A stretch of DNA of 64,000 nucleotides from Bryum argenteum (taxonomy: Eukaryota > Streptophyta > Bryopsida > Bryales > Bryaceae). The notes beneath the pieces are model-generated. The model saw only the letters and a list, made by a program, of their open reading frames with translations, had not been told where the DNA came from and ran no database searches. Within the stretch, counting starts at the first letter, position 1. Each line of letters opens with the position of its first letter. Below, one piece after another: positions 3,514 to 58,759 of this stretch. The translations under genes and the position numbers were made by a program. The stretch covers positions 37,213,420-37,277,419 of the forward strand of contig CM073321.1 of NCBI GenBank assembly GCA_037043015.1, in the 5' to 3' direction.

Positions 3514-4218
3514 CAGTTTAGCTCAAGTCGAGCTAAACTGTAAATGACAACGACCTCTCTGATTTAGCTCGAGTCGAGCTAAATCAGAATGACAAGACCT
3601 CTCTGATTTAGCTCGACTCGAGCTAAACTGTAGACGTTACGCTAGGTGATATATCTCTGATTAAGACAACCTAAACTGCTGCCCCTGTTATCAACAAATT
3701 TCAAATGACAACGCAAATAAAGGATTACGGTTTAGACTGTACTTAAATGACGTAACAATGTAATTAAAATACAAGTAGAGCTAGAGCCAACTATAAACTG
3801 CCCTTTGAATAAAAAAAAGCCTACACAAAAGCAGCTACAGTTTAGCTCGAGTCGAGCTAAAGCGTAGTTGACATGAGCCTCTCTGATTTAGCTCGACTCG
3901 AGCTAAAATCGTAGTTGACATGAGCCTCTCTGATTTAGCTCGAGTCGAGCTAAAAATTCACATCGACACATGTGTGTATGACTTAGCCTGGACTCGAGCT
4001 AAATCAGAGAGGCATGTGTCAACAACAGTTTAGCTCGACTCGAGCTAAACTGTCGTCAAAGTAAACAACAAAATTCACTCAAGACGCAGTTCAGAAATAA
4101 GAGTAAGGTCTGCAGAAATGACATGACTGGTAGAATGTACCATGGTGTTTAGCTCGAGTCGAGCACAACTTTAGTAGACAAAGTTCTAAACAGTTTGGCT
4201 CGACTCGGGCTAAACTGC
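3514..4218. repeat. Cluster of about ten P1-family palindromes upstream of gene P1
   Basis: Near-perfect odd palindromes with arms TTTAGCTCGA and their complement around one central G or C occur at about 3514, 3561, 3605, 3840, 3888, 3930, 3982 (degenerate), 4027, 4147 (half-decayed) and 4192. The best copies extend the arms to CAG..CTG or GAT..ATC. Both orientations of the central base occur. The cluster ends about 80 bases before the first recognised coding exon of P1, where promoter or replication/partition sites might lie. The same palindrome recurs in P1 introns and not elsewhere in the window, except degenerately at P5. Confidence 0.92.
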
Positions 4219-5790
4219 ATGTACTAGGATGTAAGAATTACGCTTCATGGGTATCCAGACCGATACTATAAACTAACACAACCTTTATATACACAGTCAA
4301 GAGAAGGCACGAGTTCAGGAGGCGCTCCAGCACTTCTTCAAACTTAGGCCGCTGGACTCTGACGAAGACGATGGCGACGACACAAAGCACTTGGACTGCT
4401 GGGAATTCAAGGACCCATTGAAAGTGCTTTCGTGGTCTGCGAGGTGGATCCCATACACAACATTCCTCACCCTTGTCGTCACATACGAAGGAGATGTAGA
4501 AGACCCCATGTGCGTTGACATTGACTCCAAGCTCACTGACTTCGACCACAAAACAGAGATGGAAGTCATAGCGACGTGCACAACCTTCAAGGAGAATGAC
4601 AAAGAGTGTGCCTACAACTACGCCATACTTATCGATATCAAGCAGACTCGTTTCGACTTGGGGCAGTTGGTGGAGAGCTTAGAGGCGTCCAGTTTTGATG
4701 ATATCAAAACAACACTGAAACAGGATATGCTTACTAAAGCATGGCAAACCAAACAGGGGGGAGCTCTCAAGGCCAAGCAGCTCGCAATAAAACTGTGATC
4801 TGTAGTCTCGGCTCTAACTCACGCTGACATTATGGCGAAGACGATACACCTCAAAGGAAGAGCTCCACTAGAGGGATCTGGGCTGACTGCAACTGGAAGC
4901 GGCGTACAGAGCAGGACCCCATCAAGCCCGCAACGTGCGTCAAGGCCGGCCCCTACAACCACGACGACTTCTGACTCGCTGTACAGAGGAGAGAAGCTCC
5001 CGTGAAGAAGTCGGCTGAGGCGAAGAAGAAGAAGAGCATGCTCATCCCGGAAGAGGTTGCTTTAACGGCTTTGAACGATGCTATTCAATGCATTCCAAAG
5101 AACGTTAATACTGTGGAGGAAATTGACTTCAAGAACGTCAACCTCATCTATCAAAAGTTCTTCACGGACTGTCAGGACTGTTTCGTCTTTCCTAAACCTG
5201 ACACGAAGATGGAGATTGACACAATGAAGATGATTGAGTCCCCTCCACAATGGACAATTCGGGCATTCGAGAAGAGGGGCAAGACGGACTTGATGAACTT
5301 TCTCATCAATATGCCCGACAGATCGCAAAAGCAAACGCTCTGCGTGATGCCTAAATTGGATGTCAAGCCGAACGGCATTGAGGATATGCAGGACTGCGAG
5401 TTTTGGATAATCAACGGCCAGCACAGTGTTGCCGCCTCAAAGCAGATGTTTGAGTCCAAAGTCCCAGAAACAATTCGTAAGGACTTCCGGGTGTGGTCTG
5501 CTTTTGTACATTGGACAAAGGACGAAGCCAAGCTCCGCAAAATAGCGGCGTTTTATAACAGAGTGAACCATTTCACTTCGTTTAAGCCGACATGGGCATC
5601 GAATATCCTTGCCGCCCGCACCGTGTGGGAGAACTACGGGCGCCCAGCCAACAGACATGGAGCAGCTGGGGTGGCGGACAAACGAGTGCAAGCCAAGCGA
5701 GTTCTGTCACAATTCGCAAATTTTGACGTAAGTATTACCTCATGCCGCATCGCATTTCTACCTTCTTTAATTGCAAATAATTTCCCGTCG

Positions 5791-5850
5791 CAGTTTAGCT
5801 CGAGTCGAGCTAAACTGTCATTGCAGTTTAGCTCGACTCGAGCTAAACTC
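5791..5850. repeat. Two P1-family palindromes inside intron 1 of P1
   Basis: Two 27-base palindromes (arms CAGTTTAGCTCGA, central G then C) lie side by side in the 215-base intron 5728-5942. The equivalent intron of P2 and of P3 also carries palindromes, each of its own family. Confidence 0.92.
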
Positions 5851-7308
5851 TCACTGCAGTTTCAAGAAGCCCAAAACACCTGCATCTTAATTTCGGACGC
5901 AAATAATAATCTGAAATCTTACATACTCCCGTGGCATTGCAGAAATTCGTTGACTCTATTCGGCATAGGATCGCCATGATTGATGTTGCCAAGGCCCAAG
6001 TAGAGGTGAAGAACAAGGTCTTGTCCCTAACAAATGAGCTAAAGATCATCACCTTCCCCGATGATCTCTGGAACCTATGGGCAAAGTTGATCGGAAGTGT
6101 CGCGCAGGGGACCCTTATCGACCCCTACTCCTTGAGGCAGTTGTGTGACAAGCCAGGGTTCAAACCTGATAACGACCAAACCCTGTCGAGGGAATTTTTC
6201 AAAAACCTCGGTAACCTTTCAGAGTCGGACCACAGAAAACTGTGTACCCATATGCTCAATCAGTCAGGTCCGTCGCGGAAGCTGGAATACCCGAAGGTTA
6301 CTTTGAAACAACCAGTCACCCTTCTTGAAGATTGCTACTCCGTCAAGGAGTACGTTGAGCGGTTGAAGCGGAAGGCGACCGCCCAGCTTCAGATCCACAA
6401 GATCAGACCCCAACTCGGAATCTTCAAGAACAACGAGTTCGACATGGATGCGTGGAAGAAGTTCAAGAAAGACTACCACGTCACGAAGGCTTCCAAGTGC
6501 GCACTTTTGGAATGGGGAATCCCTGACAAATATTATGCGGATCAGAGGCAGACCCAGTACAGGAATACCAGCTGCGAGGATCTCTCTCCCTACGCAAAGA
6601 GATTCTTCGAGGTTTTCCTGGAAAAGCGGGACAAGTTCATAGGCCCTGTGGGTAGTGTTATATTCCGTTCCTTCCACCGCAGAACACCACAGAGGCTCGG
6701 AGAATGGCTTGAAAACTCATGGCCGGAGGTTGCTCCTGAGATGAACGTTGGAATCATCGACTTCAGATTGATTCCGGGTAGTGGTAGCACCTCAGCAGTT
6801 TCCTCGCCTGAACACCCATTCTTCGAAATGTTCATGGCGATCTTATCGTCTCAGAACAAGCCAGCTCTCAAAGATGTACCTTGCTGGTTCTTCATTTGTG
6901 GGGATGACAATGATTACCTGCAAGTCAAGGCGTTTGCGAAAAATCCTGCTTACTTCCAAGGGGCAAATTATAAGCTGATTCCATTGATGTACTATCCATC
7001 CCCGCACAAACGGATTGCTGGATTCAATGCGAAAGCCAAGCAAGCCTCCCAGCCCGTGCGTCTTCTCTTCATGATCAAGGAAGACGTAAAACTTGCGAGA
7101 TTGCCAGAGACCGAGTACCGCGCTCCTAAGTATGCGCTTTACAAGAAGCTGTGGAAGTACAACAAGTCTCGGTATCACATGTACCCGATCGAGTTGAGGA
7201 TGGATTTTTATTTGTAGGTCATCCAGCTATTTTGCCAGGAGCAGGAGAATATTTTTCATGTCTACGCCGGCGGAAAAGCAGTCTGCGCAAGCGTGGTAAG
7301 CTTCCTTA

Positions 7309-7490
7309 CAGTTTAGCTCGACTCGAGCTAAACTGACGTACTCTATTTACGCTTAAATGTTTCCCTACAGTTTAGCTCGAGTCGAGCTAAACTGTATGGC
7401 AATTTAGCTCGACTCGAGCTAAAATGTATGGCACTTTAGCTCGAGTCGAGCTAAACTGCAATACAGTTTAGCTTGAGTCGAGCTAAACTG
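7309..7490. repeat. Five P1-family palindromes inside intron 2 of P1
   Basis: Palindromes at about 7309, 7368, 7400, 7432 and 7464 fill most of the intron 7296-7565, which lies between the exon holding the motif I-like sequence and the coiled-coil exon. Central bases alternate between C and G. The matching introns of P2, P3 and P4 carry three to seven palindromes of their own families. Confidence 0.92.
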
Positions 7491-8515
7491 TCATGCTTGT
7501 TTTCCAACCATATTCGCTCCAGCTTCAACTTTATCTATAGTCTAAGCTGCACTTTTATTTTGTAGATGTTGTCTCTCGATGCCTACTCCATATTCGATGC
7601 CGAAGATAAAGTGGACATCGACCAAGCGTACAGCGATGGGCTTACTATTGATCCTACTGACTTCTCCGTAAATGGCTATTTCGTCGACAAAGTCAAGTTT
7701 CCGGAGGTCGGGGCCATGCTCTTGAAGGGCAAGCGCAAAGCTATTGTATCTTTGGATGACGAGGCCCTCGACGATGAGGCGGACGTCCCCGACCGGGAGG
7801 ACTCTTGGTCAAGCGGAAGGCAACTTCACGGCGAAGGCAGCACTTACAGCCTAGGTTCCGGTGGAGATGACGGAAAGCAAGACATGGAAATTGACACGAC
7901 CCCACGGACAAAGCAGGAGTCGCGTACCGCTCCCGGGCGAGGAGGAGGCAGAGGGAGTGCAAAGCGGAAACATAATCCCATGTCAAAGGACTCACCCTCA
8001 AGTAGATTCAAGGCTGAGGAGAGTGCGGAATTAGCAGCTCTACAACGGAAGTACGAAGAGGAGACGACACACCGGAGGAAGTTGGAAGAGCTCCTTGCGC
8101 AGCAGCAGATTGCGCAGCAGCAACGCGATCATAGGGACTTGGAACGCCATGAGAGTATGATGGAGATGATGCGGAGTTTACTGCCGGGAAGGAATTAACT
8201 TCGGTTCAGAGGATGGCAATCACTACTGCTCAGAGTGGTGATGCTCGTGCTCCACATGCTGGTCCTACTTCGCAACCACTCACGTCCTCGCCGCCTCCAA
8301 CTATCGAGCCTCCCGCGCCTACGCCTTCCTCTCTTATGCTTGAAAGACGACCTGTGGGTGACGAAGAAGAAGAATCTCCAGGTCCTCCTTCAACTTAGAT
8401 TTTGGATCGAGTGTATAGTATTTAAGCTGTAAATGCTGGAAAAAACATATACATGTGAAATTTTGTATCAAACTCAGACATTTTTTTGTAATTAATACAT
8501 GCCTTTACTATTTTG

Positions 8516-8542
8516 CAGTTTAGCTCGACTCGAGCTAAACTG
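8516..8542. repeat. Single P1-family palindrome between P1 and its HAD-like partner
   Basis: A perfect copy (arms CAGTTTAGCTCGA around C) lies about 95 bases before the first exon of the HAD-like reading frame. In P3 two palindromes occupy the corresponding place. Confidence 0.92.
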
Positions 8543-8637: not shown

Positions 8638-11600
8638 ATGTTAATTTGGATGACGAAGCAATCGATATTCCAGTCATGGATGATGTCACGCTTGAATGTT
8701 ATCACCATGAGCGGGTTCCATCGGTAGGGGACACACTTAAAATGCATGATGTCTCACATACAGAGAATGTTGTTGTTTTCCGTGATGAGATAGATTGCAC
8801 TGAGCAGTCACTCGGGTCAATGGGTGTCCAAGTTGACTTAGAGGAGAGCAATTATGAAATTCAGGTATTTTCTGTTCCACACTCTCTGCTCTCACCCATG
8901 CCATCGTTGCGATGTATTACATGATTCTGACCTTGAATTCATCGCACCAGTGACGAAAGCTCCTCAGTAATTTTGACGTGGTGCGCCGTTTTCATTTCAG
9001 GTCAACGAAGCATCGGTCAATGATTTAATTTCTAGAGAAGGCATAGGTCGGGTTCCAAGGAAATCCTCCGGTACTTGGTTAAATGTTGTTCTCGACCTCA
9101 ATGGTATCCTCTGCAGTTGTACCCCATTTTGGGAAGCTAAAGGATACAGAAATCGTGACTTCCGTATTCACTCAGCCACGTTGCCAACCGAGGTGGGGAA
9201 GAAGCTTGTATGGGTGAGGCCCAAGTGTAAGGACTTCCTCTCTCGGGTGGCATCGTTACCTACCATCACGATTTGGAGTTCGACGATGAGAACAACCACA
9301 AAAGCCCTTTGTGATTTTCTCTTCGGTCCTATAAACCCTATAAGGCCACTACGAATTCTTGGTCAAGAAGACTGTGATATGATTCCCTTGAAATCTGGTG
9401 GGAGCCGACCATTGTTCATGAAGGAACCGGGAACTCAAAAGTCCATCTTCCTTAAGACCTTGTCAGCTCATCTCTTCAATAGCTTTGATCGTTTTTATAC
9501 AGAGGCTGATACGCTCATCATAGATCATAGTCCGGTTAAGCACGTGCTTAATCAGCGGGAAAATGTTCTTTTACTACCATATTGGTCTCACAAGGACAAT
9601 AGGGCACACGAGGATTCTATTTTGTTAGATGAGGTTTTGCCGTATCAGTTAGAGCTCCATGAGTTTGACGGTTCCCTTAGCAAGTTTCCGTCATCGTTTC
9701 CATTTGGACGTGCCATGATATATGATGATCGTGCATCATTAGATCTGTATAATGATATACAAAAAGCATTAATAGAATGAAAAATTAGTTTATATTCTAT
9801 TGTCAAGTAATTTTCGACCCTTTGGTTTAAGTTGAATTTGTATCTTAGGATGTGAAGCTCTTGTAGTAGCATTGTAGGACTTTTCATTGCATGAGCTTTA
9901 TGCACTCTGGATAAGTGATGATTTGTTTGGAAAATTGTTGAAATAGATTACGCAGGGTGATTGTTGTGCTTCTATGGATTCTTTGATGAATGCTGCGGAT
10001 TTCGGGCCTTCACTTCGGAGTAGAGGACGATTATTGCAGTTTGCTGAAACGGCTCAATCTACCATGGATTTTTCGACAATGGCAGTAGAAGATGGAGTAG
10101 TTAACAGCCCTGTCACTAAGTCATCACCTCCAAAGGTGTTGCAATCCGCCTCCCCTGTGTCGCCTCCAACAATTAATGAAAATGGTTCTCCTCCTCAAAA
10201 TACATTTACGCCTACGAAGCCTATGTTATACGACATTGACCTGGATACTTCTGAAGAAGCTTTCGTGAAGGTTTGTACCACAGTGTGCATTTAATGCTTT
10301 GAGTTGAGTGTTTGCAAGAACGAATAACTAATTGTAAATCTACTGCTCTACAGTCTAATACGTTAGACAATTCTTAGACATTGTACTCATATGCTACCTA
10401 TTGCATGTATGTATCTATTCGCTCGTTCACTTATATGAAATGCCGTTGTTTTATTTTATTACACATCTACCCAAAGACATGAAGTTTCTTTTGTTATAAC
10501 AAATACTCTGAGCATTGGAATAGGAGATATATATAATAGGGAAGAAATTATGCTATAAACTTGTAATTTATGTGATAGTTAGCAGAGTTTAAGAAGGTAA
10601 TAGTGAGTTGTGTAGAGTAATTAAGCTAAAAGACGGCTAGAAAAGCTATAACCTATGCTTGGTAGGTGGTCGTATCGTACTCATGCAAAATTTGTGATGT
10701 TTAAGTGTTTTCAAATAGTAGATTCCAATTGCTGGCATACATTTTAAATCAGGGTTGTCAGGACGACCGGACCAGGGGGCGACCGGTCGACCATGGTCCG
10801 GTCGTCCTCAGCCCCTAGGACCTGTCGGTGACATAACGGGTTTTTTATAATTTACCTGGGGTAAATTACCGTCCGACCGGTGGCCGACCGCACCCCCGTC
10901 CGATCCTTTGACCAGCCGACCGCACCCCGGTCCGATCCTTTGATCAGCCGACCGCACCCCCGTCCGACCGTTTGACCGGCCGACCGCACCCCGTTTGACC
11001 GGCCGACATCGCCATCGAGCCGGCTGCTTGGGGTTTTTTTTTTCTTTTTTTTTTAATTCTTAGTTTCCAATGTATTACTGAAATCTTTCAAAATTTCATA
11101 GGATCCTTTTTATATTTTAATCCCTCTCAGATTTTTGTTATTAGATTCTCAGTGATTATTACACAATGAAAAAAGGAATCCTATGTTGATTTGTGAAATG
11201 CTATATATTCTTTATTCACGGATAGGGTTTAGTGGTTTAGGGTTTAGGGTTTAGGATTTAGGTTTATGGTTTACTTGGAGATTTCATAATTGCAATAGCT
11301 TTGTTATATGGATTTTCACTTCAATCTGGAAATGATGAAATTTCGTAAATTCTCTTGTGTACTAACATATTATGATCTCGTAATCTATGAGGCTATATGA
11401 CTCAACTTTGGGCCACATGACCTACAACTATAACTCTATCACAATATTGCATGGTTGAGAATGTAAATTGAGCATCCTCATTTTAATATAGGACCCTTAT
11501 TTTTGAAATGCGACATTTGGTTAAAAATGGGCACTAAGTTTGGGGAGTCTATAATCTTAGATCCCCTATGTTGAATGTTGAAAATACTACCAATATATTC

Positions 11601-28591: not shown

Positions 28592-28697
28592 GTTCAACTC
28601 GACTCGAGTTGAATCAAACTTTTGTGATTTTAAAGTTCGACATACATACTGTCACACAATCTGATAGCTTTCTAGTTCAACTCCGGTCGAGTTGAAT
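28592..28697. repeat. Two P2-family palindromes upstream of P2
   Basis: Arms TTCAACTCGA with a central C at 28,592 and a decayed copy (CTCCGGTCGAG centre) at 28,675. They lie upstream of the recognisable N-terminal region of P2, as the P1 cluster lies upstream of P1. Confidence 0.85.
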
Positions 28698-28899
28698 ATC
28701 ATGCTAGCAATCATCAACTGAGTTTCGATACTAATCCAGCTTTTGCGTTCAATCAACTGAAAAACAATCCGAAGGAAAGGCTCACACCATTTTTCAAGTC
28801 TTATGTTCCTCAGGAGAACACCGAAGTCGCAGACCCATAAATATTTGGCGACATGTGGGAGCACAAAGAGCCTTACGATGTCAAATGATGGAGTATGCT

Positions 28900-31760: not shown

Positions 31761-31893
31761 AACTCGATTCGAGTTGAATATATTGAAATGCGTCTCCTAC
31801 AAATTAATGTCTTTGTGTTTAACTCGAGTCGAGTTGAATGCGCACTTCAATGTACAGACATCATTCTACTCTTGAACTCAACTCGAGTTGAAT
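31757..31893. repeat. Three P2-family palindromes after the methylase-like exon of P2
   Basis: Copies at about 31,757, 31,818 and 31,877 follow the motif I-like exon, where P1, P3 and P4 have intron 2. They end about 40 bases before the terminal repeat of the neighbouring composite element. Confidence 0.88.
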
Positions 31894-32399
31894 GGATTAT
31901 TCTAAGTCTGCTCTGAAACTATGTTTTCATATTTAAGGCCATATTCGTTAAATTGAGACAAAATGCACATTTTGAGATTATTAAATAGTTGTTGAATAAA
32001 AATAGTTGTTGAACCCAACGATAACTATAAAATTAATTGGACATGAATTGAGGTAAATTTAGGAAATATATAACGAGGAGACCATCAATACAATAAAAGA
32101 TGTAGATAAACAGTTAGTACCTAACACTTGCAATGAATGGCACCCATGAGCCATGATGAAGAAGAGTCTTAATAAAAATTACAAGATTATTTAATATTCT
32201 TGTTGTATAGATATATATATATTTATGAATTCTCAACATTGATGAAAATGACATACACATGAATGATTCTATACTATATATAGGCACCATGTGGTGGATA
32301 CATGCCAATGGAATATGAAATGTCTATTTATGATCCTTATTTCTAAAATTATATACCAAGCTAAAACTTATTATAGACAAGAATCTTCTCTTGGAGAGC

Positions 32400-35086: not shown

Positions 35087-37100
35087 TGTGAACCCGCGTA
35101 ACGGTTCACTCTAGCGGGAATACATTCCCCGCAAGGTTTAGCGCGTAATTATCAGGCTTCCATGGTTTAAATTAGACTTTTTAGCTCATTTCGTGGATTC
35201 ACGGAGTACCCGTGGTCTCAAAGGGGGTTTGGCACAAGCGGCCGTTCTTGCTCTAATTTATACCAAATTGGTATTTTTGATGAACGCCAATATATTAAAT
35301 GGCGAGTTTTTAGTATGGTTTAGCGATTACGTATTCCTAAGTAGGGGTCGGGTTGCCCCATTTTGCCCTTACCTTCTACAAAAACCCTAGTATGAAGTTG
35401 GTGCCCGTATCTTGACTAGTTGTTTAGAAAAAACTATGGATGGAAGTCCGCCCACCTGGACGGATGAAATCCGCCCAATTGGACGGATGAAGCTTTTGCT
35501 TCAACCTCCCTGGATCAGCCAGGGAGGAGGAGAGTCAGGAGAGAAGCCGTTAGGCTAGTTTTTTGGGGTGTGCCTGTTTGTTTGTAAGTTTTGTGTAGAG
35601 ATTCAAGCTTTTTGGGTGTGTTGTTGTTTTTGTGGCATTGGATCTAGGATTGGAGGCTAGAAGAGTGGCGATTTTGAGATCTGGAGGCGTGTTGGAATCG
35701 ACGAGCGACACCAGAGCGCGAGCTCGGCCACCAGGGAGCGATCTGGAGAGGAGTTAGGAGGCGCTTTAGAGGAAGACAGGACTGGAGGCAGCAGCGGCGG
35801 AGTGGCGTGCGACGACGAAGGGCGGTGCCAGGATCGGAGGTGCGAGCGGCACCAGAGTGGAGCGCGACAGCGACTTGGAGCCACCGCGGCGAAAGAGGGC
35901 GCGCGGCGAGGCAGGTCGTCACCTCGGGCAGGGGCGAACTCGGCAGGTAGGGCGACGGCGCCGGCGAGCAAGCGAGGGCCGGCCTCCTCGCGGCGACGAC
36001 TCCCGCTCCACGCACCCACCGACGGCCAGATCCGGCACAGCAGGGACCGTTCTTCCCCCATCGATCCCACCAGCAGCACCTCGGCGAGGAGGCGCCGCTG
36101 TACCAGCGGCGAGGGCCGGCGACTCCCTCTGGCGAGGTGACCAACACCGCCACCCTCACGAGGCCAGGGCGCAGCAAGTTGCGCCGCCTCTCCAGCGTGA
36201 CGACCAGCAGCAGCAGCTTGAGCAGGGGAGCTTTTGCTCCTCTTCTTTTTCTCCTTTTTTGCTCTTTTCTCTCTTCCCATCTCATTTCAAAGTTGAAGGT
36301 TAGACAGTAGCTTAACTCATGAATTTGGTGATTGGAATCACCACAAAAAACCAACTTCTTATTTTTGAATGTGTGATTGTTACTTTTGTTGCTTTTGATT
36401 GTAGTGTGTGGTTGTGTTGGATGGTTCATGGTATTTACTTTCTTGCTCGTCTTGCTTGCCTATGCTAGTTGTGGTGATTGTGTGTTAATTTTTACTGGTT
36501 GTAAGGGTAGCGCGGAAGCGCTGCTCGGTTTAAGAATTAGATTTGAGACAATTAGGTTAAAAAATTTGGGGAATTGGAATTGCGTGCGGAAGCGCTGTCC
36601 AACATTCCCCAATTAAACCTAAATTGTGTTGGAAGTGGTGAATTGCATGCTTAGTTGATTGTTAGCACTCATATGTTGATTGGGGTGCTTAGGATTGAGG
36701 TAGAAGGTGTTTAGATGTGATTTGCAACCTCTTTCAACCCTAATTTGTGTGCTGGACCTCTTGGTCCATATGTGTTTTGGAGGCCTTAAGTGTTCATTTT
36801 GGTCGTTTTGTGCCCACAATTGAGCCCTAGGCCCTCGGTGGTCAAATAAGGGCTATTTGAACCTCCTAGGTATGCTTTGGGAGACTCAATTCACTACTGG
36901 AGTTACTTGTTTGGAATTAAATTGAGACTTGATTGAATGGTTGTGCTTCCTTGTTGAATTCAAATTAGAAATTGCATGCATTTATGAAGTTTAGTGTCCA
37001 TTTCTTGGAAGGTTGTTTTGCTTGCACCCACCCCCACGCCCAAACTTGTGGCTTAAAAACCGGGTCACCGGGATTTAGGCTCACAGTCGGGTCGACGATA
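35077..37100. repeat. P3-family palindrome split by the solo LTR
   Basis: GTATCGTCGG at 35,077-35,086 and GTCGACGATA at 37,091-37,100 join, after removing the LTR and one GTCGG, into a palindrome identical in 20 bases to the intact one at 37,189. Confidence 0.85.
35087..37085. mobile_element. Solo LTR, 1,999 bp, with 5-bp target duplication GTCGG
   Basis: It begins TGTGAACCC and ends GGCTCACA, so it has TG..CA ends and a TGTGA/TCACA terminal inverted repeat. GTCGG flanks it on both sides (35,082-35,086 and 37,086-37,090). No primer-binding site, gag/pol or second LTR is present, so internal recombination has left one LTR. The GC-rich centre (35.7-36.2 kb) gives long open frames on both strands with no recognisable domain; I do not call them genes. 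The insertion point is the middle of a P3-family palindrome. Confidence 0.88.
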
Positions 37101-37188
37101 AACCTCATGCTGCTGAACCTCAGCAACAGCATCGAGGACAGGCTGATTCACACCGGAAGAGGTGGCAACCTCAGTATGTGTGCCAGCC

Positions 37189-37209
37189 GTATCGTCGGGT
37201 CGACGATAG
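37189..37209. repeat. Intact P3-family palindrome near the end of the P3 coiled-coil exon
   Basis: Arms GTATCGTCG and complement. It lies within a frame that stays open (reads YRRPDD on the minus strand), either as coding sequence or in a short intron before the HAD part. Confidence 0.85.
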
Positions 37210-38630
37210 ACAGGTACAACATCTCTTGGAGGCTGAGGCGGTGGAGCGCTCCTGGACGGCGACAGAAGAGATGCGCTTGCGGCTCGCGGAGTCGTAAAGG
37301 GTTGGCTTTGAGAAGCGGAAGCCACTGCAGCCAAGGCAGCCATCTGAGCTTGCAAATGTTTGAACATCTCCCTTGACTCATCTTGTAGAGCCTTGATCTT
37401 TGCCGCAGTCTCAGCCTCAACCTGGGCGACCTTCTCGTTGGCAATCGTGATGGCCTCCTTGGCATCAGCAAGCTTCTGCTGCTCCTCAAGCCGCTCCTTC
37501 TCTTTTTGCGCCTTAACCTTCCGCCGCTCCAATTTCCTGGCATACTTCTCCTCGGACCTCTTCCAGTAGTCCTTCTCCACCTTAATCGTCTTCTCCTTAT
37601 GAACAATGGCTTTCATGTCGGGCGGGACCTGATCATCCTCCTCATCATCGCTATCGGAAGAGTGGATGTTGAATTCATCATCACTCAAGTCAATGATGTC
37701 TTTGAGGTCGGGAGGTTGTCTTTCGACTACTGCAGAGATCGTGACATCGTCATCATTAACGACCTCCATCTCTTCCTCCTCGTTCGCCCGTGGAGCATCC
37801 CCAGCCACCAAACCGTCAGCGGCCTGCCCATCTTGGCCAACGGCCTGCCCATCATGACCTTCTTCCATCAAACTGATCTCCCCCGCCTGATTGTCGGAAC
37901 CCAACTGATCCTATAACCACATTTCCGAGAACTTCTGTAATAATGACATCCTCGTCGATAGGAAGACCTGCGGCAGTATGATCCGGCTGTTCTCTGGCAA
38001 TGTTTGGAACGGCTTCGTCAAATTGAACGATTGCATTGAAGTCGTCCGGATCTGTTGTGCCATGAGCAGAAGCGCGCGGTGAAGATGGGTTAAGATCATC
38101 ATGTGCCTCTGATTCAGAGTCCGAATCCGACCTGTTCTCATTCGTCTCTGTCGCATGCGCCACGTCGCTGATGGGAATCTGAGTCTGCGACACGAACACA
38201 TCACCCCCTTCCCCTGTCGGCTTTAACGACATTTTGGGGGAAGATGACAACAGTGACATGATCCGGAATGTGTTTGTCCCGAACTGATCGAGACCTTCAA
38301 TTTCAGGATCGTTAGAGACATGTGGACCCACACACTCAATGTCTCTAACAACAGAAGGCAATATCTCCACGGCTGAATGAAGAGAATTCACTGAAGAAGT
38401 GGGAGAATCGGAGTGCACGACGATAGGCACGCGACTCTTTGGGCGCTCGTAGGTGAGCGAATATGGAGAATTCGCAAACATGAAATCGTTCTTGTCCATC
38501 CTCTTTGCGACTCCAGCAACTTTTAAGGCTCCCTTCACTTTCTTCTGGTCTGTAAAGCCAAAATAGTATGCTCCGAACATCTGATAAACAATCAAGGAGC
38601 CAGATAATTAGTTTAAAACGAGTCCGCATG

Positions 38631-38858
38631 CTATCGTCACGTCGATGATAGCAGTTACCAAACGAGCTCAAACCAAACGTAAACGTCACCTCGCCTAAAC
38701 AATTAGGCATAGGATCTCGACATATGAAAGAATCAAAGACCTATGAAGTATATTGAATGTTATTGTCGACTCGACGATATGGGCTAGATGATACCAAACC
38801 AAACATGCAATCAGAAAGATGTGTAATCCTCCAAAAGTTATCGTCGACCCGACGATAA
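38631..38858. repeat. Three P3-family palindromes inside intron 2 of P3
   Basis: Copies at 38,631-38,651 (decayed), 38,760-38,780 (TCGACTCGA centre) and 38,838-38,858 (TCGACCCGA centre). The arms are TTATCGTCGA. They lie between the motif I-like exon and the coiled-coil exon, as in P1 and P4. Confidence 0.88.
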
Positions 38859-40146
38859 GCGAAGGATGTGTCATTACCTTCGACGCTAGAAGAAACTTTG
38901 CGCCGGCGTACACCCCGATCACGTTTTCGTTCGGCTCGGCACACGCGTGTAGTATCTCCATGTAAAACTCCATGCGGAGTTCAGTTGCGTTATGTCTCCA
39001 TTTTGCCTCTGTATTCTTGGAGATTTCTGTATAATACACACAAGTTGCAGGGGTGGAATATGTATTCTTGATTAAAGCTTTTGCTAAACTTGCAAACTCG
39101 TCGCCCTTCTTGAACTAGAAGAGAAGTGTCACGTCCGGAGAAATTGCCCGGTTTGTGACGTTATCGAGCATTTTTGCTCTAGCGGGAACGTATGTACAGA
39201 CTTTCGCCTCATATCCGGAGAGCTCCCGAGCAGCAAATGATGATGCGACTCGAATGTCGTCTTTACCCAGTAGGATAAAGAGCCAAATCTTGGGTGTATC
39301 GATCGCAGGCTTAAAATTCTCTTGCAAGAAGTTCAGGATTGATGGCTGGACGTGTGTCGGTGCTAGGGGGACTTCTCCCGTACCCCTCCTGTACTCCCCG
39401 GTAATCGGTATTTCAAGGCCATAAACCTTGTGAACATATACAATACCTCGGGATGAGCGTCGTCTATATCTTTTGCTCTGCGATGCCTTGCCTCATTGCG
39501 GAGCCTTTTCTTGAAAACTCTGCAGGCGTAAGTGCAATAAGATGATCCCATGTAGCCGATGTAAACTTGTGCCTAGCTTTCCAGGCAGACCATGTTGCCT
39601 TGATCACATCACCGCCATTGTCCACGAGCTTAAGTGAAGGCTTGATGTCCATGATTTCTTGCATCACAGCCTTCTTGCGCTTATGCCGCTCAACCCAGTC
39701 AGCGCTTGACATGTTGTCGGGTACAAGATATTTCGTTCGGTTGGTGGAAACTTTGGGATACGGTGCAATCCGGCCGGGGTCTAGGTGAGCAAATGCAGAA
39801 CCACGGTTTCGAAGTCCTTGTCCGTGAACCAACCGAATCGTTTGAAGAACTCGCGCTTCAAAACGTAAGTTTTGTACCCCTTCGCAAGCTTATACGGCTC
39901 CATTGTGGTTGGGTCGATAATTTCTCCGTCGTGGTGCAACGTGAGAAATTCCTTCCAGTGATTCCAGATATGATCCGACAAAGTGATCATTTGGAGCTCG
40001 TTCTTCAGATCTTTCAATGAGTGGATCTTAGCTCCCTCACTTTCTGGGTTGATGTTCTGGAACCTCTCCATGACAGCGTCCACGAAGCTCTGAAATAAGA
40101 AAACAATGTAATTAGGGAACAAGAATCGCCCAAACAATAGAGAGCC

Positions 40147-40167
40147 TTATCATCGACCCGACGATAA
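40147..40167. repeat. P3-family palindrome inside intron 1 of P3
   Basis: One copy with a single change in an arm (TTATCATCG), in the intron between the ParB-like exon (donor AAG|GTCAGC) and the FVDAV exon (acceptor TTATTTCAG). Confidence 0.85.
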
Positions 40168-41445
40168 CAAGCAAAATTGCAAGCTGACCTTGTAGTTAGC
40201 CTCGTTGAAGATTGCATTATTACCCCTCTCCTTGGCTTTGAGGGTCGAATCAGCAGGACGTTTGAGCGAGGTCCAGATGTTTCTACAACTCACAATCTGG
40301 TTGCCCCATGTTGGCTTGGCATGGTCCAGATGGTTTGTGATGTTATAGAATTTTGAAATAGCCCTCACTCAGTTGGATCCAAGGACCACACGATAAATGC
40401 ACTCCATGTGCGAAGCTTCTCACGACGATCGGCTCCGCAACCTCTTGTCTGGAGTGCCTTCGATGCGAAGATGCTGTGCTGGCCGTTTATGATCATGAAC
40501 TTGCCGTCCCTGATGTCTTCCCATTTTGAAGGCTTCTTTTTCAAAAGTTGATTATTCTTATCAACCGGAGTCAAGCAGACCTTCTGTCTCTGTCGGACGT
40601 CAATCATATTGACAAAACTAACCTTCACACTCTCCATAATGTCTTTCTGAAGGATTCGAATGATGTACTGATCATTCGCAAGGATGCATTGCTCGATGGT
40701 CACTTGCACATGCTCCATATTGAAGAGAAAGCAACTCGTGTGCTTATCCCAGAATTCCTTTTGATCTGCCACTATCTTCTCAAAATTGGACACTTCATCT
40801 TTGGAAGATGTGCGGCCGGCTGTAACTGTTGTGATAGCTGAAACACCGCTACCAGCAGGAGGATCTTCAGCAGCTACCAAACGAGCCGATGCTGTGCTCT
40901 TCCTCCGCTTTCGGCTTGATCCAGGAGCTGCCGGAACGGAGGCATCTCTCTTCGTCGCCCCCACTCTTGGCTGACTTGGCTTTAGAGCGCGGCTACCAGA
41001 TCCTGCGCCACTGGAGGTAAAGTCCGTCCGCGACTTCACGGGAGCCGCGACCTTCTTCTTTGGTTTGCTCCCAATACTTGGAGTCTTCACGACGGATTCA
41101 GTAGTGTATCGATCAAGGGAAGCAAAGATCCTATTAAGACGATTGGAAATACTATTTACATTATTGTGCACCCAAGGAATATAACTAGATTTCCTAAATT
41201 GCTCATTGAGGGGCTCCCATTTTGTTCCCTCGATGAATGACATAAGGTTCTCTAGATTGAACCTCGCATGCTCCTTTCTACAATCCAAGACGATTGAGTG
41301 CTGGTGATCGAGCTCCTTCCCATCGTCATCTACCGCTCTAAGTACGATTACGATGAAGTGTTCCCGGACATTCTCGATGATTGAGACCATCTTGTTTAAG
41401 TTCCAAACACTAAACATCCCTGAGGTTCCGACCTGAATTCGCAGC

Positions 41446-43835
41446 ATGACGAAATTCTTGAACTCAGTTTCCACTCTTACATGTTGTGAGCAGAATTGCC
41501 TCCAACCATTTCCTCGCGGGCAAATCCACGCTATTCGCTCACAACTACATATTAGTGATAGCGTGTACTCTCGAAAGAAATGTCTTCTTGAGGTGAATAG
41601 ACAAGTCCACAAGGATTGTGCAGGAAACGAGTGGATTACATTGAAAGGAAGGGAAGTTTGTCCCACAGCATGGTGGACCATTCATGGGATTTCGAGAGCT
41701 ACCTTCTACAGATACAAAGATGCGACTAAAGGGGGAAACAAGCTAAGGTGCATGGAAATGTGGGTTTGAAAAAACCTCGACTTCACACAGTCCAAGCTAC
41801 TGCAACGCTTCGATCTCTTATAGTTTCTGATGCCGACCGAATGCCACACAAGACCAAAAGTCTCGTTACTGATGAGAAAGTTCCATCAATGGTTTTACCC
41901 TCAGCATATTGTTGGAGTGACCAAATAAGTCACATCAATGAGATTAATGCAGTATTTGATTTGCCGCCAATTTCTTCAACTGGCTTGAGTAATATTCGAC
42001 GGGCGTCTTTTCCTGAATTTGCTGTGAAGGCTAAAGGAGACAGTTTCTCTCGTTGTGGTTTGTGTGGTAGGTACAAGCAATTACGGAGTGCTTGTACACC
42101 CCTCTCATATGCACAATCAAAGTGGACCGAGGCGTTGGAAGCGCACCTTCAATGTGCAAGGGCCCATAGAGAACTGTACTATTTCAATTGTACAGTTTCT
42201 GAAGGCTTTCTAGATAAGATGCTTACTATCATCCATGACAAAATGGATCATTCAAAGACTGCGTCACCGCACTATTCTCACAAGATTAAAGCTACAGATT
42301 CCTACCTAAGGATGCCGGTTGCAGTAACGGGAATGATTGCTCATGGTCATGGAGATGTTAAGTATGCTCACTATGGCCTTGACACATTTGCAACAGATTC
42401 CAACCATACCATTGGATCTATTGCTAAGTTATTCCGTGATCTAGAGGAGGCACCAGAAAATTCCTCCCGCAAGCTATTTTCGGAGGGAAATACGCACACT
42501 CCATTTACCAAGGCTGTCTTGAAGGGTTCTGAGATGTGTTTGGACTCCCTTCTTCCTCTACCAGAAGTGGTGATTCCTGCTAAACCCTTGCCTCCTACAT
42601 TGATTTTGCAGCTGGATAATGCTTCTGGAGACAATAAAAATAGATACGTTTTTGCATTTTGTTCGCTACTTGTATACAAAGGCATTTTCCGTGAGGTGTA
42701 CATCAACTTTCTCATAGTAGGGCACACACATGAAGACATAGATGCCATGTTTGGGCGATGGAGCTTGAAGTTAAAGGCAAATAACTTTCCAACTATTCCT
42801 AGACTTATGAAATCTTTCATGAATTGTGAGACACACCCTGTGATTCCTCATTTGATAGAAGAAGTTTGCGATTTTAAGGAGTTTGTTGAAGGTTACTTAG
42901 GGAGTGGTGGTGATTTTTTAGAAGGTCATTCAAAATCCCAGCAATTCAAATTCTTTATGGATTCTGATGGATAGCCACTGATGGAGTACAAGATTATGTG
43001 TACGGATAAGAAGTGGTTGCCTGCGCATGGCAACGGGATCCGGTTGTGGTCAGAGACAGAGGACGGGCGACCCATAATTCCAGATGGTGAACCCTTTTCG
43101 GTTGAACCACGTAAGCTGCGTACACTTGATGAGATCAAAAAAGGGTTGAACGGTTTTATTTCTCATTGGACTGGAATGGCAAACGATGATCTCTCCGGAG
43201 AATTTAGACACAAGAATGATCCTTTAAAAGAGTATTGGAAGGATGTTCGATTAGCTCTTGATGCAGAACTTGAGCCTCAAGAAAGGTTACTACACGGATT
43301 TTGGCCGGCCACGAGGGTACTTCGCGACGAGGCGGATCGTAGGATGAGAGATGGGAGGCTCCAAGAAGAGGATGCAGAGGATGAACCCTTTGTTGGACGT
43401 AGACGTGATCGTCCACGCGCTTCATTCTTTGTAAATCGGGATACTTTTGCAGATTATTTTGTTGTAGTTCGCCCTGCGGATGATGACTTGAGGCCGATGT
43501 GGCTGGCTAGGGCGACAACAAACCCCATTCCGGATCCGGGTCATATGCACATGATCGAGATTCAATATTGGAAGCCTGCGTCTTCTGATCGACACATTAA
43601 CATGGAAACATATGAAGGATGGGATACAAAAAAAGGGAACTCTTGGCGCGAAGATCGGTCTATGAATCCAACTTGGTCTAGTACAAGTTGTATCATGACA
43701 GCTTGGAAGCCACGTTTTTGGGTAGGAACTTCAGATCCAAAGGTGGCAATACCTAAGGCTCAAATTGACATCATCAAGGCATCCGTTCAAGCCTTTTCAA
43801 GTGACTCAGAACAAGACTCTTCTGCTGCAGAATGA
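41446..43835 (+). pseudogene. DUF7869-like DDE transposase gene, broken
   Basis: The N-terminal part has a Cys cluster (TCCEQNC, near 41,480-41,500) and a helix-turn-helix-like WWTIHGISRATFYRYK. The body shows CGLCGRYKQL, HDKMDHSKTASPHYSH, LQLDNASGDNKNRYVFAF (42,605-42,660) and FLIVGHTHEDIDAMFG (about 42,709-42,756). Conserved D-N-x(n)-N-K-N and G-H-T-H-x-D-x-D motifs are what I know from plant DUF7869 proteins, whose fold and context suggest a DDE transposase; I have not run a search. Breaks: a one-base frameshift near 41,745 and an in-frame TAG at 42,972 where Trp fits (DSDG-W-PLMEY). The N-terminal end is missing at the junction with P3. The tail is acidic and ends at TGA 43,833. Confidence 0.65.
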
Positions 43836-44443
43836 TGTGTCATTTAAGTATATAGTGGTTTGTTTTTTTGTTGATGAAGGGATAGATTAGACTATGGATT
43901 CCAGTGGTTAGAGATAAATGATTACTTCAAAGATATGTTAGTTGTTGTCCTTATAGAATTTGGCATAGTCTATAATTTGCATATACAAATGTTTTTTGAT
44001 AGCTTGAGAATATTCTCATTATTATTCACATCGACGTACCTAGAAGTGTAAGGATTGGTTGTTACTATTTATAGCATATTCACATTTCATTATTTGTTCC
44101 AGTGTCGTTTATTGATAATTTTTTTTCCTTTTTAGAATAATAGAAAATGTCAGATGTTTCATACTAATGTTTAGGAACGCTATAGGTGTGGTTTGAAGAT
44201 GATGGCCTTAGATAATTTTGATTGGAATGAAGAAATTCAATGGGAGATAGAGCAAGTACATAATATAGAGTCTCGTTTTAATTGCTTGTCTCAATTTAAT
44301 GAATAAATTGAAAGTGTTATTTAAATAGAATTGCAAGTCTCATTTTAATGATATGTCTCAATTTAATGATGTGTCTCAATTTAATGAACGAATTCAATGA
44401 TCTAAAATTAGTGAGATTAATATGAGACTTAAACTTGTCTCAT
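43836..44443. other. 3' flank of the transposase with subterminal repeats
   Basis: AT-rich 3' flank. From about 44,270 to 44,400 units of GTCTCA(A/T)TTTAATGA recur at least four times; these are also part of the terminal repeat, so they are probably transposase-binding subterminal repeats. Confidence 0.6.
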
Positions 44444-44644
44444 TTTAACGAATATGGCCTTTGTGTAAGAAAATATGATTGTATTCCAAACTCTGCGTTA
44501 AAAAATGAGCGTCATTTACAAAAAGTATTTACACGATGAACACCAAGTCCAATCTAATAAAACTGTTCTAGGGGAATATATATACTAGGCTATCAACAAC
44601 TGTCGAAGGCTTCTACAGGCGAACTTCCATTAATCGAAGGAGAA

Positions 44645-44667
44645 GTTCAACTCGAGTCAAGTTAAAT
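44645..44667. repeat. P2-family palindrome downstream of P4
   Basis: TTCAACTCGA-G-TCAAGTTAAAT, a slightly decayed copy, just beyond the stop codon of P4. Confidence 0.82.
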
Positions 44668-44687
44668 GAAAGACTAGATTGTGGAGT

Positions 44688-46396
44688 TCAACCTGATTCG
44701 GTAACGTTCCGATCGAGAGTCTCATCATGTGTCCCTATCTGCTCTTCCTCATCCACGGTCTTCCTTTCCGAATCGACTGGGTCCGATGGTATGGAGCGAC
44801 TTGATCCGCCTTGATCCCTAGAAACAACTTGAACAATGTTGCCCGCAGGTGAGGGAGCTGCAGTCGACTGAGAAGGCGTGCCTTGGAGGGAACGTTGAGG
44901 AGATGCATGTCGAGCTACACTACTGTCGGAAGACTGAGTGGGCCCGTGAGTCAGGAGCAGAGGTTGACTATGACTTGGATCGAGGGAGAGGAGCGGCTTT
45001 GCATTCAGGTTCGTAATTGCTTGGACTACTACCCCAGGTATTCTCGCGAAGGTCTCAGTCATCATAAACTTCCATCGTTGCTCATCCTCATCTCTATGGG
45101 CTCTGCGTTCCTCGCGCTCTCGAGTAAGCATTGCTTCAACTTCCGCCTTTTGTCGCGCATGCGCTTCCTCCTGCATTCTGACGAGCTTCTCCATTAGAGC
45201 GTCAACGGATAGTGACTCCCTTTTCCTCTTTTGAGGCGATGGCGTGGAAGCTGGAAGAGAGCTATCCGAATAGCCTTGTCCTGGGATGAGGAAGATGAGA
45301 AGATGAGCCTCGTCCAGTTTGGGGCGTTATGGGGATTTGGGAACCGTAAGCCTCAACATCCTGGTTAGGATCGTCATCGTCGTCACTTGACCCGATTACT
45401 ATCGGTCTTGGGTCATTCAAGTCAAGTGGTAACTCTACTCCCCTGACCTTCTTCGTCCCCTTCCCCTTCTCCGTCTTCGTGGGGGGTGGTGGTGCTTCCA
45501 GTCTCCCCCTAGATCCAGAAGCCTCATCGATCGGGTACCCACCTTCGAAATCTCGACGATCCAAGTTGAAGACATCCATGGAAAGTCTGACAACTTCGTT
45601 GCTGGAGCGGATCGTGTAATTCATCAGCGAACACATCTGCGAGTAGACACATCAAGAGATGACAACGTTAATCATTTGAAATTTTAACTCGAATCGAGTT
45701 GAAATGGAGGTGGCGTGTGAAAGCACTATAAGACTAATCTGTTGTGTGCATTCAACTCAAGTCGAGTTGAATACCAAATATGAACTCTAAGCGCCTTCAA
45801 ACAACAAATTCAACTCGAGTCGAGTTAAATATAAGAACGCATGTAAGAACAAGACTTCGTAGCATACTTAGTAATCCATTCAACTCGAGTCGAGTTGAAT
45901 TGAATCTAAGTTTGTGTGAAGTGATCCTTGGACACTGAGGTGCGCACTGAACTCGACTCAACTTAAATACAACGAACTTAGAAAGCAACAGAGTCATGAC
46001 AAACTATTCAACTCAAATCAAGTTGAAATACATAGGATGTCCTTACCCAGGCCGCACAGTAGAGCTTCCCGCCTCCAAAAACCCTGAGGATTGCATCCCC
46101 TTCCTTGCAGAAGAGATCAAGCAGCTTCAGGTAGAACTCCATCCTCAATTCCGAATTATAAATACGGTACTCGAGTTTGTTGTATCTCCCGCAGATCTTG
46201 AACTGTGGAGTGTCAACGAGGTTTGATCCTCGAGTCGCTCGTAAGGAGCCGGAACATATTCCGCATACTCTATCTTGTAGTTGGTTCCGAACTCGCAACT
46301 ATCGAGGTGATTCTTGATCTTCGCCTCAGCATTCTTCCATGAATTCCGGGATTTTGGTTTCCTAAATATCGTCGGAGAATATTGGGATTTGCACAT
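44688..46396 (-). pseudogene. P4: 5'-truncated ParB/methylase-like gene copy
   Basis: On the minus strand, 46,396-46,047 encodes the methylase-like end only (IKNHLDSCEFGTNYKIEYAEY, then ELRMEFYLKLLDLFCKEGD and FGGGKLYCAAW), ending at a donor TGG|GTAAGG. After intron 46,046-45,637 the last exon starts at ATG 45,636 (MCSLMNYTI) and holds an acidic region (SSDDDDDPNQD), a Glu/Arg coiled coil (RQKAEVEAMLTREREER) and a Ser/Pro tail to TGA 44,688. Relative to P2 about 30 residues are deleted and a frameshift follows near 46.23 kb; another lies near 45.28 kb. The ParB-like half is absent: to the right of 46,396 lies the C-rich end of a hAT-like element. An ATG (MCKSQYSPTI) and an upstream TATA on the minus strand suggest a chimeric transcript. 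Confidence 0.65.
45682..46029. repeat. Six P2-family palindromes inside intron 2 of P4
   Basis: Copies at about 45,682, 45,751, 45,809, 45,879, 45,949 (decayed) and 46,007 (decayed), spaced 58-70 bases, fill the intron 45,637-46,046. Arms TTCAACTCGA as in P2. The regular spacing suggests growth by local duplication. Confidence 0.9.
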
Positions 46397-52240: not shown

Positions 52241-52245
52241 TCTTC

Positions 52246-54600: not shown

Positions 54601-54627
54601 ATGAATTCCAATTAAAGTCTAGTCTTA

Positions 54628-54750: not shown

Positions 54751-55542
54751 TGATAGAAATAAAACATGTAAGCCCACCTCAAAGTTTACTGCACAAAAAC
54801 TTTGAAAAAATTGCAATAGAGAATGATAACTTGGAATGAGGACCGATTTTGAAGCAACGAAAGTGCAAGAATAGGTGAGGTTTCCTAGAGAGCTAACAGT
54901 GTACACAAGCTAAGCTCGGAAGGTTGCCGTAGTGGCAGACTCGAAGATAACCAACATACGCAGTGGGTGAGAGTTGCTTTGGTTATAGATGGCAGTGAGC
55001 ATGGAAGAATGATCGTATAGGAGACTATCCAGAAATGAGCTCATTGCTAGACTGCGACTTTCAAATTAATTGATCGAGACAGCAATGAAAAAAGGAAATG
55101 AAGGTAGGAGCAAATCAGCAGTTTGCAGCTGCGTCCTGCCCAAAACGTAGACCAGGCACGATGTAGCACAAAAACTAATTCAACGTCCAAACGTTCAATG
55201 ACTCACAGAAATCAATCTACTATATTCAAAATACTATATTCATAATACTAGATATACTTTATCAAGTACTTATGTTAAATAATTTTGCTTAGTTAACATA
55301 ACCCAATACTAAACTTAGAATACTACTTTAAGTATATTTCAGTGTTATAGTTAGAAAAGCAGACCTAATTTAGTATATAATCAAGCTAGAGTACCTTACC
55401 TTATTTACTAGTAAGATACTAAACTTAGAGTATTTCACTCAAAATAATACAATTTTATTCTTAAAATTCCACATTTAATATTCTTGAATACTATAGTCAG
55501 AAAACTAGACATAATGTATCAAGTACTTATGTTATACTCTCT

Positions 55543-57360: not shown

Positions 57361-57909
57361 CAAGAGGCTCTACGGTCGATCGATCCTAGATTCCTGTGTT
57401 GCTTTTCCTTTACGGTTTCCAACTCTGAACAGAGATTACTTTTAATTGTGACAGAGATCACCACTCAGCTCTAGAATTGGCAATCAGTTGAGTTCGACGC
57501 ATGGGCGGTTTGCCTTGCCCTCTTATACTAACATCACGTGCTTGGAACAGCCGGGCAGCGGCCACGCGCAGTCAAATCACTTGAGGGCAGCTCGGGCAGC
57601 GGAGGGCAGCTGCGACATCTCCCGAAGGCTGCAGCTGACATCTCGTCTGTTGCTGTAACAATATCTCCTCTTTCGCCGCTCCGCTCCGCAGCTTCCCCTT
57701 CATGTTCCGCTTCGCTCCGAAGCTTTCCCTTCCTGTTCCGCTTACCTCCGCTTTCCCTTCCTGTTTCGCTTACCTCCCTCCCCCACCTTCACCCCCCCCC
57801 CCTCACCCCACCCTCATCCTCACCCCCCTCACCCCCTCACCATCACTCCCTTCACTCCCCCTTACCTCCTCCGCCCTACCCTAGAGGCTCTACGGTCGAT
57901 CGATCCTAG
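57361..57909. repeat. Direct repeat GAGGCTCTACGGTCGATCGA flanking a C-rich stretch
   Basis: The same word, continuing ATCCTAGAT, occurs at about 57,364-57,391 and 57,884-57,911. Between them lies a leader-like, then C-rich stretch. It may mark an internal duplication of the hAT-like end. Confidence 0.5.
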
Positions 57910-58356
57910 ATCCCCCCTCCCGATCCTAGATCCCCCCTCCCGATACCCGCCTCCGCTCGTCCCCGCTCCGCTCGCGGCGCCCCCCCCCGCCCTAAAACCC
58001 CCCCCGCTTGGCCCCCTTGGCCCCCGCCCTGGCCCTTCCGCCCCCACCCTAGCCCCCTCCGCCCCTGCCCTGGCTCCCCCTCCTCCGCCCTGGCCCCCCC
58101 CCTTTCCCGCCTTGACCCCCCCTCACCCGCTCCTAACCCCTTTCACCCACCTTGTCCTCTGCCTACATGGCGCGTACGTGGCGTGTACGTAGCGGCCAAG
58201 TGGCTTGGTTTTTATCCAAACCCTTGCCACGTCCTCTTTTTTTACCTGAATTAAAAGTCAACAGAGGTTTGACCGTATCGGGCGAGCGAGAGCTCTATCG
58301 GACGGACAAGGCGGACGCACGGGCGGCCGGCGTGCCCGCCCGGTATGACAACCTTG
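57770..58356. mobile_element. Right end of a third hAT-like element, C-rich
   Basis: The end TATGACAACCTTG (58,344-58,356) carries the hAT-like terminus seen at 19,265 and 47,191, preceded by about 400 bases of CCGCCCT/CACCC-type words. No left end was found. The following GTATTTAG could be a target duplication. Confidence 0.5.
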
Positions 58357-58404
58357 GTATTTAGTTACAAACTAAAGCTTGTAGTCCAGCAGTATACTTT
58401 GACA

Positions 58405-58759
58405 ATTAGCTCGATTGGAGCTAAGTCCACTGCAGTGTCATAACCTGCGTAGGGATTTAGCTTGACTCGATCTAAATGCACGGCTGCTTCGTGACAATAC
58501 GAGCTAAGTAGCGCATCTCCATTCTTAAGGCACCGTAGGCACTTACAGTTTTTGCATTGAATTGCAGACATGGCTCGCACTAAGAGGACTGCCAGAATCG
58601 TTTCCGCCAACTCAGGAAGAGCCTTCGGATCTGCGAGTCAGGATGAACTTCGTGATCATGAAATATGTTTACTTCGTGTAAACTCTAGGGGTTGTTTTTA
58701 ATTCTTCAATTGTATTTGATACATTCATAGTTAAGAATCTAGCTTGGTTCGAGCTAATT
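58405..58759. repeat. Three decayed P1-like palindromes upstream of and within P5
   Basis: ATTAGCTCGATTGGAGCTAA at about 58,405, a copy with TTTAGCTTGACTCGATC at 58,455, and TAGCTTGGTTCGAGCTAATT at 58,740. The last lies in the intron between the first two P5 exons. All resemble the P1 family (TTTAGCTCGA arms) with several changes. Confidence 0.65.

Follow-up and report, generated by a model that had tools for sequence, protein, structure and literature searches.

A 64,000-nucleotide stretch of the Bryum argenteum genome (C1:37213420-37277419 of an assembly of 258.8 Mb in 25 contigs; hereafter the window) contains copies, P1 to P5, some of them decayed, of a gene accompanied by short palindromes of odd length. 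These copies belong to transposons that have inverted repeats and 4-bp target duplications and that carry a DUF7869 gene and, divergent from it, the gene in question, here called the accessory gene. The palindromes, or dyads, fall into classes named for the outer bases of their arms, and each class follows its own lineage of the accessory protein.

Palindrome classes in the window and the genome

Specifically, when both arms of a palindrome were scored against the 10-mer of each class, with up to five mismatches allowed in 20 positions and cross-class matches excluded, the TTTAGC class gave 18 sites at P1, their centres running from 3527 to 8529, and the TTCAAC class gave seven at P2 (28603-31882) and six at P4 (44656-46017), with a weak seventh of five mismatches at 45957. 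The TTATCG class gave seven, between 34928 and 40157 and all within the P3 element; three of these are weaker (34928 and 37091 with four mismatches each, 38641 with five), and the one at 34928 lies away from the P3 accessory gene. These counts required little revision of the preliminary description, which had listed about 17, 14 and 6 copies and had correctly recognised P1-like decayed palindromes at P5, where three TTTAGC-like sites (centres 58415, 58466 and 58748) carry three, two and four mismatches. Its further claim that each class is confined to the matching element holds for the class sites at P1 to P4; outside any element lie three TTCAAC matches with five mismatches (1239, 52087 and 63668), and the few others are one-register overlaps. 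That the palindromes are real is clear from the controls: 60 permuted-arm palindromes scored in the same way gave a mean of 0.37 matches and a maximum of 4, and the motif YTCGASTCGAR, at up to two mismatches, occurs 98 times against 36.2 expected, a number equalled in none of 100 shuffles.

Across the genome, counted on one strand, there are 4929 exact copies of the TTTAGC palindrome with an S centre and 875 of the TTCAAC palindrome with any centre, while the TTATCG palindrome has 157 matches with at most one mismatch, six of them exact among the matches listed; the patterns read backwards gave no match genome-wide. A fourth class, TTATCC, came to light in the matching intron of four copies (L060-L063) from a protein clade with about 39% identity to P3. 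Its dyad, TTATCCCCGG-N-CCGGGGATAA, has 693 exact copies in the genome and the core CCGG-N-CCGG. The central base is C or G in the window P1 copy, whereas P2, P4 and the P1b subfamily admit any base there, and at P3 four of the five sites examined depart from the TCGA core. Given the CCGG class and the free centre, the invariant TCGA-S-TCGA core that had been proposed must be abandoned. All four consensus dyads retain CG-R-N-Y-CG at the centre, so the constant part of the dyads is the CpG positions rather than TCGA.

The dyad is longer in the P1-type arrays, reaching about RCAGTTTAGCTCGA-N-TCGAGCTAAACTGY. Conservation was profiled in five arrays at sites chosen by the inner sequence CTCGA-N-TCGAG, whose bases are fixed by that choice; on either side, the five outermost bases of the arm are conserved at 93-100%, and positions 15-22 from the centre at 26 to 89%, mostly 30-65%. 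The 21-bp dyads are thus better conserved than the surrounding DNA in the arrays profiled. Within the TTTAGC arms, CpG transitions account for 38 of 100 substitutions, although CpG occupies 2 of the 10 positions. Such an excess is expected if sites are methylated when silenced, and suggests that dyad sites have often been methylated once silenced.

Association of palindrome class with protein clade

In a tree that took in 32 of 52 ParB-domain rows, the rows associated with TTTAGC (15 rows, 13 distinct copies), TTATCC (four) and TTATCG (three) are each set apart from the rest by a single branch (support 98/95, 100/99 and 96/96). The two TTCAAC rows group, at 100/100, with one homolog that is not assigned to a palindrome class; the P5 gene is too diverged for placement. 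A relative of P3 at 61% identity (L059) has a decayed TATCG-type site. Co-localisation was tested for TTATCG, TTATCC and TTTAGC over part of contig C1, a cluster being counted if a gene copy lay within 12 kb, and with 150 of 854 and 150 of 708 candidate gene copies scored. Near copies of their own type and of the two other types lay 9, 0 and 1 of the 18 TTATCG clusters (shift test P 0.0015), 4, 0 and 0 of the seven TTATCC clusters (P 0.0025), and 5, 0 and 0 of the 12 TTTAGC clusters (P 0.017). In the window and the genome samples tested, flank class therefore follows protein clade, as had been predicted. Some large TTTAGC arrays, for example C1:510655-524919, have no nearby accessory gene among the copies listed; these are perhaps non-autonomous elements, or belong with copies beyond those listed.

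Other genomes provide an indirect view, in which the DNA is read via the protein. Dyad-like peptides (LAR[FLIV]EL. or.SS[NSTI]RA.) occur in 29 of 153 homologs, mostly close to the C-terminal end of a predicted exon, compared with none of 153 for reversed peptides and a mean of 0.03 (maximum 1) for shuffled ones. These peptides bear on the idea that the dyads act as RNA or DNA hairpins, in splicing, as cruciforms or as sources of small RNA, or that they simply reflect the expansion of repeats that no protein reads. Many sites are indeed intronic and perfect dyads are able to fold; however, the same dyad also fills arrays outside genes, dyad-like peptides recur in the homologs just described, and repeat expansion alone does not predict four sequences that keep the same symmetry and CpG spacing. 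We regard explanations of this kind as unlikely.

The elements and their two genes

The end pair of the P3 transposon (AAGGCCATATTCGTTAAAWTGAGACAA) also flanks P3-like genes at four other places in the genome. Once inspection of these outside copies had placed the end at AAGG, exact 4-bp target duplications (GGAC, AATT, ACTA and TTGA) were seen in all four, and mismatched P3 end pairs gave agreeing duplications in 0 of 20 cases. The window copy has no 4-bp duplication, so that four of five P3 copies have one. It sits between pieces of the TTCAAC gene, P2 on the plus strand and P4 on the minus strand; because these opposite-strand pieces flank P3 and the duplication is missing, the insertion site in the window has perhaps been rearranged. 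The sequence CCATATTCGTTA, which follows both P2 and P4, was at first taken as part of those elements and is actually the end pair of P3. Likewise, a P1 end at 10456 was rejected: that is where the window copy is truncated, and others continue to a sharp 3′ end that is common to 12 fetched loci and a copy on C3, two of the loci having an identical flank.

That C3 copy is a complete P1-type element of 18,490 bp (C3:15266645-15285134) with the duplication GAAA and the left end AACCCCGTATTCGTTATATT, known from this one copy. From one end to the other it comprises a DUF7869 gene, upstream of the accessory gene and on the opposite strand; a first palindrome array; a long interval in which no gene is clearly evident; a second array; and the accessory gene, each of whose exons 1, 2 and 3 is followed by palindromes. 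In the copies read, the stretch of about 7 kb between the upstream arrays holds open reading frames (ORFs) of at most 248 amino acids, apparently of low complexity, and scraps resembling the accessory gene. None of the 23 palindromes in the P1-type element falls within a matched exon. The P3 element likewise encloses this pair of divergent genes; its intergenic DNA is short in the window copy, and a copy at C1:2.53 Mb has palindromes in the between-gene interval, as judged by position. The P1 3′-end pattern has 56 of its 75 matches on C1 (44.1 Mb, 17% of the genome), and 3 of the 33 ParB-exon matches listed off C1 have an internal stop, stops being frequent (uncounted) among the C1 rows. C1 may be a non-recombining chromosome, for instance a sex chromosome.

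The DUF7869 protein is a candidate transposase by virtue of being encoded by the second conserved gene of the element; its Pfam entry assigns no function, and no paper on it was found in the open-licence literature searched. The P1-type element contains relatives of both ORFs of the P3 DUF7869 gene, arranged alike, and identity between P1 and P3 is 49-58% for the first ORF, 31-39% for the second and 22-33% for the accessory protein. Thirteen of the P1-type sites form an array directly upstream of the DUF7869 gene, as might be expected if the DUF7869 transposase used the dyads as subterminal sites or to enhance transposition and the accessory protein did something else; some transposases bind internal or subterminal repeats. 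The P1-type sites are internal, however: they occupy the accessory-gene introns and the DNA separating the two genes, and the nearer element end is 2.4 to 7.1 kb away. We think it improbable that the transposase is what they serve.

For the proteins of accessory-gene exons 1 and 2, sequence searches of Pfam, NCBIfam, PHROGs and the PDB returned nothing above cut-off, or weak unrelated rows, and a search of viral contigs gave 52 pattern matches and no relatives. Structure models were more informative and predict a ParB/Srx N-terminal domain fold for exon 1 and, for the methyltransferase-like domain, a beta-class DNA amino-methyltransferase fold over about 180 residues. The arginine-bearing cytidine triphosphate (CTP) motif of ParB is of the GxRR type; at this place 48 of 52 rows have GQH followed by S, C or N, and one has GQHR. 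In beta-class enzymes, motif I, the S-adenosylmethionine (SAM) loop, has the form F.G.G; here its second glycine is lysine in 22 of 22 rows. Motif IV ([DSN]PP[YFW], DPPY-like) is present in none of 37 homologs, and in the 32 rows spanning that position D is present in 31 and DFR in 28. The suggested likeness to ParB and parS, or to a methylase and its site, hence survives as a resemblance of predicted folds, and a literal methylase and site is unlikely because the DPPY motif and the SAM-loop glycine pattern are absent.

These same replacements weigh on two more specific proposals. An active methyltransferase that marks its own dyads at TCGA or CCGG, in the style of a modification system, would have to work with DFR at motif IV and lysine in the SAM loop, and the core of its sites differs between classes; it seems to us a poor prospect. 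True partition or tethering, in which a ParB-like domain on parS-like dyads holds element DNA together or on chromosomes, for example as an extrachromosomal circle, is unlikely, given that GQH and its following residue replace the ParB arginine motif and that the elements are integrated, with target duplications.

Table 1. Palindromes, genes and element ends in the window (positions counted from its first base)
Feature	Position	Strand	Details
P1 upstream palindrome array, TTTAGC	3517..4214		10 sites; centres 3527, 3573, 3617, 3851, 3897, 3944, 3993, 4039, 4158, 4204
P1 exon 1 (N-terminal and ParB-like domain)	4292..5729	+	Homologs match 4292-7403; interrupted in window copy
P1 intron-1 palindromes	5794..5847		2 sites; centres 5804, 5837; between GTAAGT donor and CAG acceptor
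P1 exon 2 (helical part and methyltransferase-like domain)	5937..7295	+	In-frame stop in window copy
P1 intron-2 palindromes	7312..7487		5 sites; centres 7322, 7381, 7413, 7445, 7477
P1 exon 3 (acidic / coiled-coil)	7566..8198	+	ORF, with matching ORF in L039
P1 palindrome 3′ of exon 3	8519..8539		Centre 8529
P1 late exon, NIF/HAD phosphatase-like	9181..9780	+	PF03031 E=2.4e-08
P2 upstream palindromes, TTCAAC	28593..28696		Centres 28603, 28686
P2 accessory gene, decayed, exons 1-2	28679..31774	+	tblastn best P0080 62.7%, P0149 65.7%
P2 intron-1 palindromes	30210..30325		Centres 30220, 30315
P2 intron-2 palindromes	31758..31892		Centres 31768, 31828, 31882
P3 transposon	31935..44461		AAGGCCATATTCGTTAAAWTGAGACAA at both ends (terminal inverted repeats)
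P3 accessory gene (ParB-like, methyltransferase-like and acidic exons)	37065..41439	-	
P3 palindromes, TTATCG	37081..40167		Intron 1 (40157), intron 2 (38848, 38770, 38641), last exon (37199, 37091)
P3 DUF7869 gene, two ORFs	41748..43835	+	PF25273 E=1.1e-46; divergent from accessory gene
P4 palindromes, TTCAAC	44646..46027		Centres 44656, 45693, 45761, 45819, 45889, 46017; weak 45957
P4 accessory gene, exon 2 end and exon 3	44687..46336	-	P0149 82% at 45981-46336
P5 decayed TTTAGC-like palindromes	58405..58758		
P5 ParB-like exon remnant	59380..60012	+	Best P0047 29.7%

The NIF/HAD phosphatase-like exon of P1-type elements (seen also in the 3′ part of L041/L042) has no tblastn match at the other window copies, and is possibly a captured host gene. 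A repeat at 16565-16740 and 56072-56247 is related to an insert of about 0.9 kb in exon 2 of one P1 copy (L040, 1742-2676). C-rich tandem arrays and repeats lie away from the palindromes, at 10883-10993, 46665-46944, 57772-58164 and 60955-64000, the repeats recurring at about 1.5-kb spacing in the 61-64 kb region. Ten other ORFs in the window matched no Pfam family at E 0.01.

A proposed dyad reader and known systems

We lean towards reading the palindromes as cognate sites, most likely dimer-bound, for a DNA-binding protein that the transposon itself encodes, on the strength of sequence patterns and structure models. The tracking of dyad class with protein clade would be expected by descent, because gene and dyad travel in one element. 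Rather, the case for a reader comes from the conservation of the dyad relative to its surroundings, from the symmetry and CpG spacing kept in four sequences, and from the recurrence of the dyads in introns and in upstream DNA. A ParB-type dimer domain joined to a methyltransferase that has lost its activity but not its recognition of DNA would suit a reader of dyads.

Several observations weigh against a reader of this type. Co-segregation alone is no proof of binding, and with such linkage the role of reader might instead fall to the DUF7869 protein or to a protein of the host; the second DUF7869 ORF varies nearly as much as the accessory protein. No nearby gene copy among those listed accompanies 8 of the 18 TTATCG, 3 of the 7 TTATCC and 7 of the 12 TTTAGC clusters, two P3 sites fall within the last coding exon, and the TTATCG dyad is genome-wide mostly imperfect, by one base. 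Likewise, the methyltransferase-like domain is constrained, with a nonsynonymous rate (pN) of 0.33 and a synonymous rate (pS) of 0.84, and an unusual activity is possible (a further comparison, of the window ParB exon with L039, was out of frame, at 18.9% identity, and was discarded). Lastly, no helix-turn-helix was identified in the accessory protein, for which no dedicated search was made, and the exon-2 model shows a long helical stretch.

If the accessory protein does bind the dyads, its methyltransferase-like domain may no longer methylate and may instead read or shield the DNA. Loading of the arrays would then keep the control regions of the element free of host DNA methylation and silencing, with the effect that the transposase could be expressed. 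Protein and dyads would diversify jointly, each lineage serving its own copies only. We read the accessory protein as protecting or activating its own element because the layout resembles that of VANC21 and because its variability exceeds that of the first DUF7869 ORF. It is conceivable, though we would not call it probable, that a ParB-fold, dead-methyltransferase protein on lineage-specific CpG dyads blocks or strips host methylation, and that this is a second, independent, sequence-specific anti-silencing system assembled from components of prokaryotic partition and modification. In that event, anti-silencing by arrayed cognate motifs would have arisen more than once, and the ParB-type fold would gain a role in a eukaryotic transposon. 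At least four natural reader-site pairs would be at hand for learning how dyad readers shift specificity, and such pairs could serve as locus-specific epigenome tools.

It is informative to compare these elements with known systems. Sola2-type transposons have 4-bp duplications and inverted repeats (PMC3627910); compared on these features alone, they resemble the elements described here (4-bp duplications in P3, 4/5, and in the P1 type, 1/1), a likeness that is not diagnostic. With ParB, Noc and KorB the accessory protein shares the predicted N-terminal domain fold, and the inverted-repeat target sites resemble the parS type; here, in contrast, there is a GQH loop without the arginine motif, a eukaryotic transposon, an odd dyad and a gene shared with a methyltransferase-like domain. 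A search of open-licence literature for ParB with transposon in Physcomitrella found nothing relevant, a statement confined to that literature. The beta-class methyltransferases (CcrM, M.MboII and M.RsrI; also MTA1 and METTL3) share the predicted fold over those 180 or so residues, whereas here the catalytic and SAM-loop motifs are replaced, a ParB-like domain lies in the same gene, and the gene lies in a transposon. Spm TnpA belongs to a different superfamily and, to our knowledge, has no ParB or methyltransferase fold. According to PMC10398659, this maize protein is element-encoded and activates its element, which is correlated with DNA demethylation; an element-encoded protein activating its own element is what is proposed here. 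Known anti-silencing factors encoded by transposons are few; PMC10398659 names VANC, Spm TnpA and MuDR MURA.

Among these factors, VANC is the clear case of arrayed cognate motifs, and the layout of the elements described here matches anti-silencing by VANC in VANDALs better than it matches a partition system. VANDALs are transposons of the Mutator type. According to PMC5735166, the motifs of VANC21 lie in introns and in intergenic and terminal noncoding DNA, the tandem repeats differ among families, and VANC is more variable than its transposase. VANC carries DUF1985 and DUF287 and has a 9-base non-palindromic motif (PMC5735166, PMC10398659); here, neither DUF1985 or DUF287 nor any other Pfam family was found above cut-off in the exon 1 and 2 proteins, and instead there are predicted ParB and methyltransferase folds, a 21-bp odd dyad, DUF7869 and 4-bp duplications. 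What the two share is a second protein encoded by the transposon and family-specific short motifs multiplied in the noncoding DNA of the element, which here form arrays in introns, intergenic and upstream DNA (PMC5735166, PMC10398659). As in VANC, the accessory protein (22-33% identity) is more variable than the product of the first DUF7869 ORF (49-58%).

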